From Bradyrhizobium lupini (GTDB taxonomy: Bacteria > Pseudomonadota > Alphaproteobacteria > Rhizobiales > Xanthobacteraceae), in the NCBI RefSeq assembly GCF_040939785.1, contig NZ_CP162553.1:6467001-6531000 (forward strand): a stretch of 64,000 nt of DNA, read 5' to 3'. Both the position numbers and the translations under genes were made by a program. Shown here one piece after another: positions 47,576 to 51,731 of this stretch. Below the pieces are notes generated by a model that was given only the letters and a program-made list of their open reading frames with translations, was not told the origin of the DNA and made no database searches. Each line of letters starts with the position of its first letter. Positions within the stretch are counted from its first letter, which is position 1.

Positions 47576-47872
47576 TTAGGCGCGCGTGCCGGTGAACGGG
47601 AAGCTGCCCATCGGGCCGATGCCCATCTCACCGCTCATGCTGTCGCCGGAGACGGTTCCGATGAATTCGAGCGTCAAGGGCATCGGATTGGTGATCGAGA
47701 CCTTCCAGTTGACGGCATCGCCGCTGACGGTGCCATCGAAAATCTCGGCTGTATCGCCTTCCGCGCCCTGCGTCCCCGTGAGCGTGCCGCCGGCAGCCGT
47801 CAGGCTCAGCGTCGCCTTGCGCTCGCCCATGGGGGTCGTCAGGGTCAGAGTCCAGTTGCCGTCGACGGCCAT
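47576..47872 (-). CDS. Conserved hypothetical beta-rich protein (98 residues)
   Basis: ATG 47872 has a GGGAG ribosome site. The product (MAVDGNWTLTLTTPMGERKATLSL, then GTQGAEGDTAEIFDGTVSGD and a C-terminal GPMGSFPFTGTR) consists of alternating strands and Gly turns, without signal or membrane segment. Small proteins of this pattern occur near oxidoreductase genes, but I cannot name the family. Probably part of the TetR-linked membrane-protein operon. Confidence 0.75.
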   Translation of the reverse strand: MAVDGNWTLTLTTPMGERKATLSLTAAGGTLTGTQGAEGDTAEIFDGTVSGDAVNWKVSITNPMPLTLEFIGTVSGDSMSGEMGIGPMGSFPFTGTRA

Positions 47873-47976: not shown

Positions 47977-48531
47977 TTAGGCGCGGGCGGCGGCGCGTCG
48001 TCGGCTGGTGACGATGAGGCGAAGCACGACGTATTGCACGGCGAAGGCGAGGATCTTGGCGCCGCCCGCGACCACCGTGATGTAGAACGCCCACAGCTTC
48101 AGATCGCCTGTGGAGGCGACGGCGATCATGCCGGCGCCGATTACGAACATCAGCGCGGCCCAGGCATAACCTGCAGCCGTCACATATTCCGGAACGGTCT
48201 CGACGACGATCGGCGGCATGTAGCGCAGCATCCAGCCCCGCTTGAGCATGATGGCGCCGATCGCGAAATGCGCGATCGAGGGCTTTGCGAGCATGAAGCG
48301 GGGATCGTTGGTCAGCAGCGTGACCGTGCCGAGCACGACGACGAGCGCGACGCTCGCATAGGTCATGTAATTGAGCTGCTGCCCCTTGACGCGCGCGTAG
48401 ATCACCTGCGCGATCGCTCCGGCAATCGCCACCGACGTTGCCAGGACGACGTTGTCGGTGATGATATAGATGACCAGGAAGACGATGGCAGAGAAGAGGT
48501 CGGAGGCGAGGCGGGCGAATACGTCCTTCAT
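47977..48531 (-). CDS. YciB/IspZ-like inner-membrane septation protein
   Basis: 184 residues with five or six transmembrane helices. The layout and the TNDPRFMLAKPSIAHFAIGAIMLKRGWMLRYMPP segment correspond to the YciB/IspZ family, which helps cell-envelope and septum formation. It lies 12 bases after the upstream membrane-protein gene under the same TetR-type operator pair, unusual for a septation gene, so it may be a specialised paralogue. Confidence 0.75.
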   Translation of the reverse strand: MKDVFARLASDLFSAIVFLVIYIITDNVVLATSVAIAGAIAQVIYARVKGQQLNYMTYASVALVVVLGTVTLLTNDPRFMLAKPSIAHFAIGAIMLKRGWMLRYMPPIVVETVPEYVTAAGYAWAALMFVIGAGMIAVASTGDLKLWAFYITVVAGGAKILAFAVQYVVLRLIVTSRRRAAARA

Positions 48532-48543
48532 CGTCGATCCTGT

Positions 48544-49119
48544 TCAGCGGGAGTTGGACATTGGGCTGGCCGGCGCACCGTACTTGATCTGCCGATATTC
48601 GGGATACCATTTTGTGAAATAGATCGCGCTGTTGCGGGCGGCGAAGGCGACCGCAAGGCTCGACCAGAGCGGCAGGCCGGGGACATAGAGCAGCACGAGA
48701 TTGGCGGCCGCCATCAGCAGCGCAGCCGCGGTCCAAGCGCCCGTGATGACGTAATTGGCATAGAGAAAGCCGGGCATTGCCGCGGTCTCGGCCGGCACGG
48801 ATTCGACCGCGTATTGCAGCGTGAAGGGACGCCGGACCAGCATCGAGCCGAGCGAGATGACGAAGATGCCGATGTCGACCGACAGCTTGACACCGAGCGT
48901 GCCAAGCGCCGGGTCGAACAGCGCGAGGTGGAGGCCGATTGCGGCGAATAGCAGCGCCGAGCCCATAGCCAGGATCTTCAGCGAGCGACCGCGCACGACA
49001 TCGATCGCCACGGTGGCCAGACAGGTTGCCGAGGCTACGAATACGCTGATCGTGGCAGACGTCATCAGCATCAGGAAAGTGAAGGCGCCGTAGGGCGCGA
49101 GGATCAGGAAAATCGCCAT
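48544..49119 (-). CDS. Hypothetical multi-pass membrane protein
   Basis: 191 residues with about six hydrophobic helices (for example 2-25, 50-70, 75-95, 120-148). A conserved-looking C-terminal AARNSAIYFTKWYPEYRQIKYG is cytoplasmic or interfacial. No family recognised. First gene after the operator pair at 49141-49211, followed by the YciB-like gene. Confidence 0.75.
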   Translation of the reverse strand: MAIFLILAPYGAFTFLMLMTSATISVFVASATCLATVAIDVVRGRSLKILAMGSALLFAAIGLHLALFDPALGTLGVKLSVDIGIFVISLGSMLVRRPFTLQYAVESVPAETAAMPGFLYANYVITGAWTAAALLMAAANLVLLYVPGLPLWSSLAVAFAARNSAIYFTKWYPEYRQIKYGAPASPMSNSR

Positions 49120-49140: not shown

Positions 49141-49159
49141 ATCTTTACGGTGTAAAGAT
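49141..49159. promoter_or_regulatory. TetR-type operator, perfect (upstream of membrane-protein operon)
   Basis: ATCTTTAC-GGT-GTAAAGAT: an 8-3-8 perfect palindrome, 22 bases before ATG 49119. It is identical in both arms to the site at 50915-50933. Confidence 0.85.
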
Positions 49160-49192
49160 CAATATGTCAGGAGCGAGGCGAGGTCAAGTAGA

Positions 49193-49211
49193 ATCTTTAC
49201 AGTGTCAAAAT
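49193..49211. promoter_or_regulatory. TetR-type operator, imperfect (distal)
   Basis: ATCTTTAC-AGT-GTCAAAAT: left arm perfect, right arm 6/8. Its centre is 52 bases from that of the perfect site, and it overlaps the last codons of the 89-residue membrane-protein gene. Confidence 0.75.
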
Positions 49212-49466
49212 GACGTAAGCGACTTCCAAAAATTGGATTGCTGCAACGGCTTGGTCGGCCATCTCATCAATGAAGCCGGCCCGGGACAGGTGCGGCAGCA
49301 CAGGTAACGCACAGGCGATCGAGAGGACGAAGGCGAGCAAGATACCGCCGTTGAAGATGGTTTGGCCGCTCCGCCGCGGCCGGATCATCGGGAGCGTGAT
49401 CCCGGCGCAGATCGGGAACAGGATCAGGACAGCGAGGCGGTCCGCGGTGATCGAGGGCATATGCAT
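49197..49466 (-). CDS. Small membrane protein downstream of carotenoid oxygenase (89 residues)
   Basis: ATG 49466 has an AAGG ribosome site 6-7 bases upstream. Two or three hydrophobic helices are visible (ADRLAVLILFPICAGITLPM; FNGGILLAFVLSIACALPVL). It lies 40 bases after the carotenoid oxygenase gene and is probably in its operon. Family not recognised; possibly a partner or product transporter, which is inference. Confidence 0.65.
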   Translation of the reverse strand: MHMPSITADRLAVLILFPICAGITLPMIRPRRSGQTIFNGGILLAFVLSIACALPVLPHLSRAGFIDEMADQAVAAIQFLEVAYVILTL

Positions 49467-49506
49467 GAGAGACCTTTTGGTGACATCAGCGATGTCGAGA
49501 GGAGAG

Positions 49507-50898
49507 CTACCGCGCGCCGACCCAATTGCCGTGAAAACCGTCGGGCACGCGATGGCCGAGCTGCACCAGCGCGACGGGGCCGGCCTCGACATCCTTGGCA
49601 TTGAACACGGCGAGGTCGCTGCGGTTTTCCCGCGCGCGCCAGACCACCGCCAGCAGCCAGCCGTCGCCTTCCGCCGCATCTTTCGACCGCTCGACGAAGA
49701 CCGGCTCGGAGATGGTGTCGCCGGCCGGCAGCAGATAATGGCCGAGGCGCGTTCCATTGCCATCGACATGGACGACGCCGGACAGCGCGCCGAACATCGG
49801 CAGCTTCGGATTGGCGCAGGCGTACCAGCCGTGACGGCTCTTCAATCCGGCGCGGCGGTCGTCGATGCGCGGGAATTCGCCGGTAAGATCGTCGAGATAG
49901 GTCTGCTGGAAGCGGTCGGTCTTCCCGGCAAGATCGAAGGTCCAGCGGCAGTGGCGAGCGAAGGATTTCTCGGGATTGGTGGGCGTGCCGTCGGGATGCG
50001 TAAATAGTGGTGCTTCCTCGAACTGCATGACGTCCGCGATGATGCGGTCACCGTCCTCCCAAGCATTCATGACGTGGAAGACGTAGCAGGCTTCAGCACG
50101 AAACCAGACGATGTCCTTCGCGCTGCCCTTGCGCTTGATCACGCCGACATAGGCGCCCTTGTCCGGCTCCCAGGCATAGGGCGGCCGCCCGCTGATCGCG
50201 CGCTCCATGCTGCCGGTGACGGGCAGGATCGGAAACAGCACGTGGTTCTCGGTGACGATGAAGTCGTGCACCATGCTTGCATAGGGCGCCTCGAAACGTT
50301 CGAAGCGCGTCGCCTTGCCGGACGCGTCGATCGAGCCGTAGGAGAGGGCAGGCGTCAGCGGACCCGCGGCGTTGTAGCCGAAGAACACCAGCTCGCCGGT
50401 GACGGGATCGATCTTCGGGTGCGCGGTGAAGCTGCCGGCGACACGGCCCTGATAATTGTGATAGCCGCGGGTTGCGAGCGTGCCCGGATCGATCTCAGTC
50501 GGCAGATGGGCTTCTTCCAGCGCAAGCAGCTTGCCGGCATGGAAGATGATGTTGGTGTTGGCGACGCCGCCGTCGGTGAGGTCTTGCGGCGCATCCGGCA
50601 GCTTGCGGCCGAAGCCCCCGAACAACGCGCGGCCGGCATCGTGCTCGGCCAGCCATTTCGGCGTACGGACCCAGCGATTGCGATGGCTGGCGCGGCCGTT
50701 CTCGAGGTGAAAGGCGTGCAGCATGCCGTCGCCGACGAACCAGTGCGCGCCGGGCGAGTCGAACTGCGGATTGGGGCCGTTGCGATAGAGCGTGCCGTTC
50801 AGTTCGCGCGGCAATTCACCGATGATTTTCAGGAAGGGCGCGTCGGCCTCGAACGGAATCGGACCGAGGTTGTGGCGGCGTTCGGCGTCCTGCTGCAC
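49507..50898 (-). CDS. Carotenoid oxygenase family protein
   Basis: 463 residues of the beta-propeller carotenoid/stilbene cleavage family. Four iron-binding histidines are placed as expected: TAHPKID, SMVHDF, YVFHVMNAW and, at the C-terminus, FHGNWV. N-terminal GELPRELNGTLYRNGPNP and HWFVGDGMLHAF are hallmarks. It cleaves a double bond of a carotenoid, apocarotenoid or lignin-derived stilbene with O2 and Fe2+. GTG 50898 has a GGAAGGG site. The perfect TetR operator lies 17 bases before its start. Confidence 0.93.
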   Translation of the reverse strand: MQQDAERRHNLGPIPFEADAPFLKIIGELPRELNGTLYRNGPNPQFDSPGAHWFVGDGMLHAFHLENGRASHRNRWVRTPKWLAEHDAGRALFGGFGRKLPDAPQDLTDGGVANTNIIFHAGKLLALEEAHLPTEIDPGTLATRGYHNYQGRVAGSFTAHPKIDPVTGELVFFGYNAAGPLTPALSYGSIDASGKATRFERFEAPYASMVHDFIVTENHVLFPILPVTGSMERAISGRPPYAWEPDKGAYVGVIKRKGSAKDIVWFRAEACYVFHVMNAWEDGDRIIADVMQFEEAPLFTHPDGTPTNPEKSFARHCRWTFDLAGKTDRFQQTYLDDLTGEFPRIDDRRAGLKSRHGWYACANPKLPMFGALSGVVHVDGNGTRLGHYLLPAGDTISEPVFVERSKDAAEGDGWLLAVVWRARENRSDLAVFNAKDVEAGPVALVQLGHRVPDGFHGNWVGAR

Positions 50899-50914
50899 GG
50901 CGTATCCCTTCCTT

Positions 50915-50933
50915 ATCTTTACATCGTAAAGAT
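50915..50933. promoter_or_regulatory. TetR-type operator, perfect (carotenoid oxygenase / tetR region)
   Basis: ATCTTTAC-ATC-GTAAAGAT: 8-3-8 perfect palindrome between the divergent carotenoid oxygenase and tetR genes. Confidence 0.85.
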
Positions 50934-50967
50934 CAAATAGCCGTACGAGGGGTTTTGGTCAAGTGAA

Positions 50968-50986
50968 ATCTTTACACTGTCAATAT
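50968..50986. promoter_or_regulatory. TetR-type operator, imperfect (next to tetR start)
   Basis: ATCTTTAC-ACT-GTCAATAT: left arm perfect, right arm 6/8, centre 53 bases from the perfect site and 20 bases before the tetR start, so autorepression is likely. Confidence 0.75.
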
Positions 50987-51005
50987 TGCGTCCTATAGCT
51001 GGCCC

Positions 51006-51731
51006 ATGGGCAAGAGTGAGATCAGGACAGAAACCGCGCGCGGTGGGCGCATTTCGAAGAAGGCGAGCGCGCCGGCGCGTTCCGCGCGACGACCGGCGAG
51101 CGTCAAGTCCGAGGCGCCCTATCACCACGGCGCGCTGCGCGAGGCGCTGCTCCAGGCCGCCGAACGGGTGCTGGAGCGTGACGGGCTCGCCGGCCTGACA
51201 TTGCGCGCGGTGGCGCGCGAGGCGGGCGTCTCGCATGCCGCGCCCACCCATCATTTCGGTGACCTCACCGGGCTTCTCAGCGAGCTCGCGGCGGTCGGCT
51301 TCCGCCAGTTCAATGCGGCGATGGCGTCGTCCTCTGACACCGCCACCACCCCGCTTGAGCACGCGCTGGCGCGGCCGAAAGCCTATGTTGCCTATGCCCA
51401 GGCTCATCCCGGCATGTACGGCATCATGTTCCGCACCGAGCGCCTCGACTATTCCAGGCCGTCGCTGCACGAGGCCGCCGAGGCGTCCTTTGCGGGACTC
51501 GCCAATGCCGTCGGCATGATGCGGCAGGAGCAGATCCGCGGCGACGCGCTGACGCTCAATCAGGGCGCTGCGATCGCGCGCGCCTGGTCGATGGTGCACG
51601 GTTTTACGATGCTGCTGCTCGATGGACGGCTGGAGGATATTCTGGGGCGTCTGCCCGAGGGCACGACTCCCGAACGCCTGCTCGAGGCCATGCTGATGTC
51701 GCCCGTGACGGGGAAGCCGCCGGGCCCCTGA
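51006..51731 (+). CDS. TetR-family transcriptional regulator
   Basis: 241 residues: a basic, disordered N-terminus (1-35), a TetR helix-turn-helix (about 40-90: YHHGALREALLQAAERVLERDGLAGLTLRAVAREAGVSHAAPTHHF) and a WHG-type C-terminal ligand domain with a SMVHGFTMLLLDGRL segment. It probably represses the carotenoid oxygenase and membrane-protein operons and itself through the four palindromes at 49141-49211 and 50915-50986. Ligand unknown; an apocarotenoid or aromatic is plausible. Confidence 0.92.
   Translation: MGKSEIRTETARGGRISKKASAPARSARRPASVKSEAPYHHGALREALLQAAERVLERDGLAGLTLRAVAREAGVSHAAPTHHFGDLTGLLSELAAVGFRQFNAAMASSSDTATTPLEHALARPKAYVAYAQAHPGMYGIMFRTERLDYSRPSLHEAAEASFAGLANAVGMMRQEQIRGDALTLNQGAAIARAWSMVHGFTMLLLDGRLEDILGRLPEGTTPERLLEAMLMSPVTGKPPGP

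Follow-up and report, generated by a model that had tools for sequence, protein, structure and literature searches.

The locus described here raises the question of whether one TetR-family regulator controls its own gene and two neighbouring operons through a common operator, and what the pairing of its operators means. The window, i.e. the whole stretch of 64,000 nucleotides from Bradyrhizobium lupini that was analysed, had been read before from its letters. This original prediction saw two matching operator pairs, each with a strong and a weak site, and proposed a compact regulon made up of tetR, a carotenoid oxygenase gene with a small membrane partner and a membrane/YciB-like operon, with looping or cooperative binding between the sites.

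A scan of the window at up to three mismatches gave four operator matches and no others; 100 shuffles of the window gave a mean of 0.05 matches and at the most 2, so that four was never reached. Two of the sites are perfect palindromes, and each has a partner with two mismatches, 52 and 53 bp away, respectively (Table 1). The right arms of the partners, GTCAAAAT and GTCAATAT, are altered in the same two arm positions, so the four sites were predicted correctly down to these changes. The distances to the downstream starts, 17 and 22, had been called the same; they are right when counted from start to start (50915-50898 and 49141-49119) but are similar rather than identical. A search of the whole genome (7.83 Mb) for more copies of the operator, as the prediction had proposed, found none at up to two mismatches beyond the four. 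At exactly three mismatches there are 2 extra sites, which we regard as background because the reversed-pattern control gave 6 per strand. Since the palindrome is identical on both strands, only its location with respect to the promoters is informative; those of the oxygenase and isp operons are on the minus strand, and therefore the perfect site of each pair is the promoter-proximal (downstream) one and the imperfect site is the upstream operator.

Table 1. Genes, operators and putative promoter elements of the locus (window positions; ispA, ispB and lip are labels given here)
Feature	Position	Strand	Description	Basis
lip	47576..47872	-	98-aa conserved ORF, 3' of ispB in relatives; without family match	
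ispB	47977..48531	-	184-aa IspZ/YciB-like protein	
ispA	48544..49119	-	191 aa, all-helical model	
Pair 1, perfect operator	49141..49159	.	0 mismatches; promoter-proximal, downstream of the -10, ispA-ispB-lip operon	site scan, conservation
ispA operon, -10-like TATTGA	49159..49164	-	17-bp spacer; 1-bp overlap with perfect operator	
ispA operon, -35 CTTGAC	49183..49188	-	4 bp from upstream operator	
Pair 1, imperfect operator	49193..49211	.	2 mismatches; upstream of the -35; contains stop codon of the small membrane-type ORF (overlap 49197-49211)	
Small membrane-type ORF	49197..49466	-	89 aa from the chosen start codon; open frame runs further upstream; without family match	
RPE65/carotenoid-oxygenase family dioxygenase	49507..50898	-	463 aa	
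Pair 2, perfect operator	50915..50933	.	0 mismatches; promoter-proximal, carotenoid oxygenase operon	site scan, conservation
Oxygenase promoter, -10-like TATTTG	50934..50939	-	abuts perfect operator	
Oxygenase promoter, -35 CTTGAC	50958..50963	-		
Pair 2, imperfect operator	50968..50986	.	2 mismatches; upstream operator of the oxygenase promoter, overlaps tetR -35	
tetR -35 TTTACA	50971..50976	+	within imperfect operator, supplied by its left arm	
tetR -10 TATAGC	50994..50999	+	17 bp after the -35; ends 6 bp before tetR ATG	
tetR	51006..51731	+	241 aa, TetR_N + TetR_C_33 regulator	

The regulator passes the cutoffs of TetR_N (PF00440, 36.9 bits vs 24) and TetR_C_33 (PF13305, 49.2 bits vs 26.8); its structure model was poor, with a mean pLDDT of 57.3, and was left out of the evidence. 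The oxygenase belongs to the RPE65 superfamily (PF03055, E 1.2e-135, residues 13-460) and lies below the cutoff of the curated LSD equivalog (NF053778, 423.4 bits vs 800). The ispA product gave no match in Pfam and a weak similarity to VC0807 below the cutoff (20.3 bits vs 65; Pfam and NCBIfam); it is probably a membrane protein. The ispB product passes PF04279 (51.8 bits vs 28.7) and stays below the curated IspZ equivalog cutoffs (TIGR00997, 50.3 vs 165.2; NF001325, 57.7 vs 180). Downstream of tetR the window holds a small SET-domain protein with a lysine-rich tail (PF00856; 52530-53096, plus strand), which with few exceptions is also found near tetR in relatives, and two tandem XRE-type regulators of the same orientation with MmyB-like ligand-binding domains (PF17765; 54006-55689, plus strand).

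Each pair frames a promoter. Read on the minus strand the order is imperfect operator, 4 bp, CTTGAC, about 17 bp, -10, perfect operator and start codon, and the -10 elements of the oxygenase and isp promoters, TATTTG and TATTGA, are poor. Operators overlap or touch core elements on both strands, and therefore all three promoters carry an operator over or against a core element. The tetR messenger is probably leaderless or nearly so, judging from the place of its -10; leaderless transcripts are documented in Bradyrhizobium, where a published study counts 320 start sites 0-10 nt from a start codon (PMC4842269).

The geometry was followed through 204 pairs in 119 loci, which are the window, 80 genus loci and 38 further loci of the family. 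Between the upstream operator and CTTGAC there are 4 bp in 201 of the 204 pairs, a count which, like the invariance of the arms, rests on sites found under a mismatch limit that favours invariance. CTTGAC itself is exact in 197 of the 204, and in 202 pairs 23-26 bp separate it from the downstream operator. The position of the upstream operator is therefore bound to the -35, with an offset that stays at 4 bp while the other side varies, and since this offset is a fixed quantity the promoter geometry explains much of the constant spacing in the five-turn pairs. A pair is found directly upstream of tetR in 117 of the 119 loci. In these tetR-side pairs the tetR -35 TTTACA is exact in 104 of 117, the spacer to the -10, placed by best fit, is 17 bp in 112, and the first ATG or GTG comes 6-7 bp past that -10 in 107. 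In one tetR-side pair (L174) the sites are 42 bp apart, roughly a helical turn closer than usual, and the -10 region of the oxygenase promoter is lost. Among the 87 pairs away from tetR, 73 have within the upstream operator a TAA that closes an open frame of at least 60 codons. The remaining ones comprise 8 with a short frame, 5 in which the best frame ends there with TGA (3 long, 2 short) and 1 without a stop there; in L145-L148 the frame at the upstream operator is short and the site is nevertheless kept.

Throughout the genus the sites go with the regulator. Of 265 Bradyrhizobium genomes, 261 hold operator sites with at most two mismatches; the commonest number is four per strand, while the reversed-pattern control gave 0-2. 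None of the four site-less genomes (G039, G163, G167 and G227, the last only 67% complete) has an intact tetR ortholog; all have a paralog of 37-38% identity, and G163 additionally has a decayed 41% copy with 2 stops. The ortholog is present in all 8 other genomes of this comparison, and a TetR paralog of 36-39% identity in all 12. A further 20 genomes with sites also have the ortholog, each giving exactly one match at E 1e-45 or better; a family-wide search at 1e-20 also catches the paralog and was not taken as an ortholog count. The HTH region is near-invariant in the 119 orthologs and differs in the paralog that persists in the site-less genomes.

For the alignment of the pairs we used 80 named genus loci and the window (81 in all); pair 2 could be aligned in 80 and pair 1 in 72, with the single pair of L083 counted as pair 1 and that of L080 as pair 2. 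The spacing is 52 bp in 70 of 72 cases for pair 1 and 53 bp in 78 of 80 for pair 2. The gene order fum, SH3, lip, ispB, ispA, pair, small ORF, oxygenase, pair, tetR, inv, SET is found in 44 of the 80 loci (L005-L084), and in the others one or more elements are missing or doubled. Two 100-base placeholders (L173, L179) were excluded from all counts.

The sites also come and go with the target genes. A complete pair 1 is absent in 9 of the 80 genus loci, one of which (L080) is without oxygenase and has a single pair. The other 8 have the oxygenase and lack pair 1 wholly or in part, and in all 8 ispA is absent or a fragment: no match at E 1e-3 in L029, L057 and L069, a partial match in L035, L051, L058, L067 and L079. 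Relatives from other genera without oxygenase at this place have a single pair between ispA and tetR (e.g. L150, L152, L154, L156, L160, L163), and two loci with oxygenase and ispB and no ispA (L162, L171) have one pair. When oxygenase and ispA are both present there are usually two pairs; L164 retains one pair-1 site at this stringency. Two loci without ispA and ispB (L153, L155) gave no site at three mismatches, and a degenerate pair about 54 bp apart was read there by eye. In one genus a second divergent couple of TetR and carotenoid oxygenase genes lies upstream of the same locus (L165, L166, L167, L169, L172), with 29-41% (TetR) and 39-42% (oxygenase) identity to the window genes; the coupling of TetR and oxygenase thus recurs.

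The conservation supports the view that the sites form an old, real regulon. The central claim of the original prediction gains from the co-occurrence of sites and ortholog, from the position of the sites on promoters and from their gain and loss with the target genes: one TetR very probably controls tetR, the carotenoid-oxygenase operon and the IspZ/YciB-like membrane operon.

That this regulon is compact holds for the present genome but not for the genus, since some members have extra pairs of the same layout at unlinked genes. The commonest such target seen is a gene in which an ispA-like domain is fused to a carotenoid-isomerase/CrtI-like FAD oxidoreductase. Its best NCBIfam match is TIGR02730 (E 6e-42, 144 bits, below the cutoff of 587), and it resembles ispA only weakly, with matches of E 4e-7 to 5e-6 in 5 of 11 loci at a limit of 1e-5. 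At E 1e-100 the fusion gene is found in 16 of 265 genomes, with no match in the window genome, and in 14 of the 16 a pair 52-56 bp apart lies upstream of it; the two site-less copies are the most distant ones (52% identity; next 70%). In G085, a single contig, the fusion gene is 2.6 Mb from tetR. Frequency was measured for the fusion gene only (265 genomes), and the survey for third targets covered 54 genomes, mostly with at least 5 sites and hence a biased sample. Beyond the fusion gene the observations are few: in three genomes (L237, L253, L254) a pair precedes the second copy of a tandem M20 amidohydrolase gene couple, and in a single genome, G116 (L233), a pair with a spacing of 54 bp precedes a GPH-like symporter gene; the additional pairs of G116 and of G152 (L234) were found at a looser limit and are outside the stricter pattern.

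Outside the family, homologs of the regulator are scattered. They were found in 25 of 297 genomes of an order sample at E 1e-32, 10 of these from this family, and in 28 of 385 genomes of a class sample at E 1e-29 or better, two of these being Bradyrhizobium. We compared 39 distant loci (36-54% identity), which are 12 of 16 order-sample candidates and all 27 new class-sample loci; the 16 candidates are 15 genomes outside the family and a second copy in G252 (Bradyrhizobium), and G740, G694, G769 and G749 were left out. A relaxed palindrome with at most two mismatches lies upstream in 33 of the 39, with at least two sites in 29, and the upstream regions of 6 gave no site at this limit. The 39 upstream windows hold 68 sites and the remaining 209,360 bp of locus sequence none at the same limit. 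Of the 35 spacings, 10 are 20-22 bp, 17 are 31-35, 1 is 42 and 3 are 52-54, with outliers at 24, 26, 27 and 39. A Rayleigh test with a period of 10.5 bp gives p ~2e-7 with no correction for relatedness; when each distinct value is counted once and the genus values are included, it gives a weak p ~0.045. Divergently from tetR, 21 of the 39 loci have an ABA4-like gene and 4 an RPE65-type oxygenase gene; neither was found in 14 within the available sequence, which is short for 27 loci. All 4 ABA4-like proteins that were scanned were confirmed by Pfam.

The asymmetry of the pairs, the strong/weak pairing of the original prediction, is real and conserved in the 204 pairs. In all 117 tetR-side pairs three of the half-sites have C at position 3, whereas the distal half of the upstream operator has A in 75, T in 33, G in 6 and C in 3; the distal half-site is thus kept weak in 114 of 117. 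It should be noted that the sites compared were found at a limit of 3 mismatches, which favours invariance elsewhere. Distal position 3 has changed at least 9 times on the TetR tree, positions 1, 2, 4, 7 and 8 never vary, and in the other 87 pairs the distal position is never C. Several substitutions, and almost none of them to C, suggest that selection keeps this half-site weak.

From this geometry we infer double-operator repression with autoregulation by the local TetR repressor, a reading which as a whole we hold with good confidence. The TetR encoded at 51006 would bind ATCTT[T/G]AC-N3-GT[A/C]AAGAT as a dimer, and each target promoter would take two dimers, the first covering the -10/start region and the second immediately upstream of the -35, nearly on the same face of the helix and about 5 turns apart. 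The bound pair would block RNA polymerase at the oxygenase and ispA-ispB-lip promoters. Because the upstream operator of pair 2 contains the tetR -35, the same dimer would repress tetR, and because the divergent -35 elements are only 7 bp apart, the oxygenase and tetR promoters would compete as well. The upstream operator with its imperfect distal half would probably be the last to fill and the first to empty, and this would make tetR the most readily induced gene. TetR is expected to be released by a small hydrophobic molecule, plausibly one that the regulated polyene/isoprenoid-type chemistry makes or consumes.

How the two dimers would influence each other is less certain. Local same-face cooperativity within a pair is plausible and fits the spacings, and to this extent the cooperative binding originally suggested can be kept. 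The dimers might, however, fill their sites independently, with a spacing set only by the 29-bp core promoter and no demand for cooperativity or phasing. The core promoter fits the gap of 33-34 bp, and the locking of the upstream operator to the -35, with nearly all length variation on its other side, agrees with such a model; it is a serious candidate, although we lean against it, since the distant relatives mostly have spacings (20-22, 31-35 and once 42 bp) that leave no room for the same core promoter and likewise group around full helical turns, the four outliers excepted. The looping that was offered together with cooperativity is unneeded. Two similar pairs in cis, 1.77 kb apart, could invite it, but single-pair arrangements recur and keep the pair, and some pairs are megabases from the others, so we consider a part for long-range looping in the mechanism very improbable.

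The fixed 4-bp offset could equally well reflect a contact of the activator type. TetR would then be a dual regulator which represses from the downstream operator and, at the upstream operator, aids RNA polymerase through sigma region 4 or alpha-CTD, with ligand or occupancy switching the promoter between repression and activation. The exactness of the offset, in contrast to the 23-26 bp on the other side of the -35, agrees with this, as does the upstream site of pair 1, which is kept without a tetR promoter and even where no long frame ends in it. On the other hand a site centred near -50, as inferred from the promoter elements, is no usual class I or class II activator position, occlusion of the -35 explains the offset too, and TetR proteins are mostly repressors; we find dual regulation unlikely. 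The adjacent TetR is very probably the binding protein. Another regulator, with the adjacent TetR as a bystander, might be sought in the paralog present in all 12 genomes compared, but this paralog persists in the site-less genomes and the intact ortholog does not, and in the loci compared for homologous regulators similar sites are confined to the region immediately upstream of tetR, which makes this the least credible of the alternatives.

The targets and associated genes, i.e. an oxygenase of the carotenoid-cleaving superfamily, the CrtI/CRTISO-like fusion and the ABA4-like neighbours of homologous regulators, suggest by association a carotenoid- or isoprenoid-like chemistry. More tentatively, we see a chance, though one well short of even, that a clade of TetR regulators in the Alphaproteobacteria shares a single operator code, arranged in helically phased sets of about 2, 3, 4 or 5 turns, and responds to a lipid of the carotenoid, apocarotenoid or another polyprenoid-like type. 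Its targets would be polyene-type enzymes and their membrane partners and would vary with the lineage (RPE65-type oxygenase, IspZ-like/CRTISO-CrtI-like fusion, ABA4-like, IspZ-like), and the upstream operator, in view of its constant 4 bp to the -35, might do more than block. No description of the regulon, its operator code or its spread was found in the open-licence literature among the matches listed. The analysis now specifies an operator code, a promoter layout and a set of targets for this TetR regulon, which is near-universal in Bradyrhizobium, with homologous regulators and similar sites scattered through the Alphaproteobacteria. Little-known families (IspZ-like, VC0807-like, ABA4-like) become tied to carotenoid-type enzymes by shared regulation or by kinship of the regulator, and their function and ligand can therefore be tested with reporter strains.

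Comparison with known systems begins with the oxygenase. The lignostilbene dioxygenases LSD4 (6xm6, E 1.6e-98) and NOV1 (5j53, E 3.1e-95) are among its best PDB matches, and the four histidine ligands listed for LSD4 are kept in the aligned stretches (PMC8191317). According to the same text Tyr-101 and Lys-134 of LSD4 bind the 4-hydroxyl (PMC8191317); the corresponding residues here are F96 and E128, and by that criterion a 4-hydroxystilbene is an unlikely substrate. FrrA, the flavonoid-responsive regulator of Bradyrhizobium, is likewise a TetR-family protein of this genus encoded beside its presumed targets, the efflux pump genes freCAB (PMC4070704), whereas none of the operator-framed genes here is an efflux pump. 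Among structures, the TetR-type proteins 3on2 (E 2.2e-24, residues 35-210) and 3cjd are the best PDB sequence matches of the regulator, and their molecule names reveal no ligand or target.

Autorepressors of the TetR family with paired operators are known. Tn10 TetR with tetO1-tetO2 and other divergent TetR loci share with the present locus the divergent arrangement of regulator and target, palindromic operators over both promoters, and autoregulation, which here is predicted. Unlike in those systems, the operators here stand on either edge of a single core promoter, the tetR -35 lies within one operator of which one half-site is kept imperfect, and the whole cassette is repeated at further promoters.
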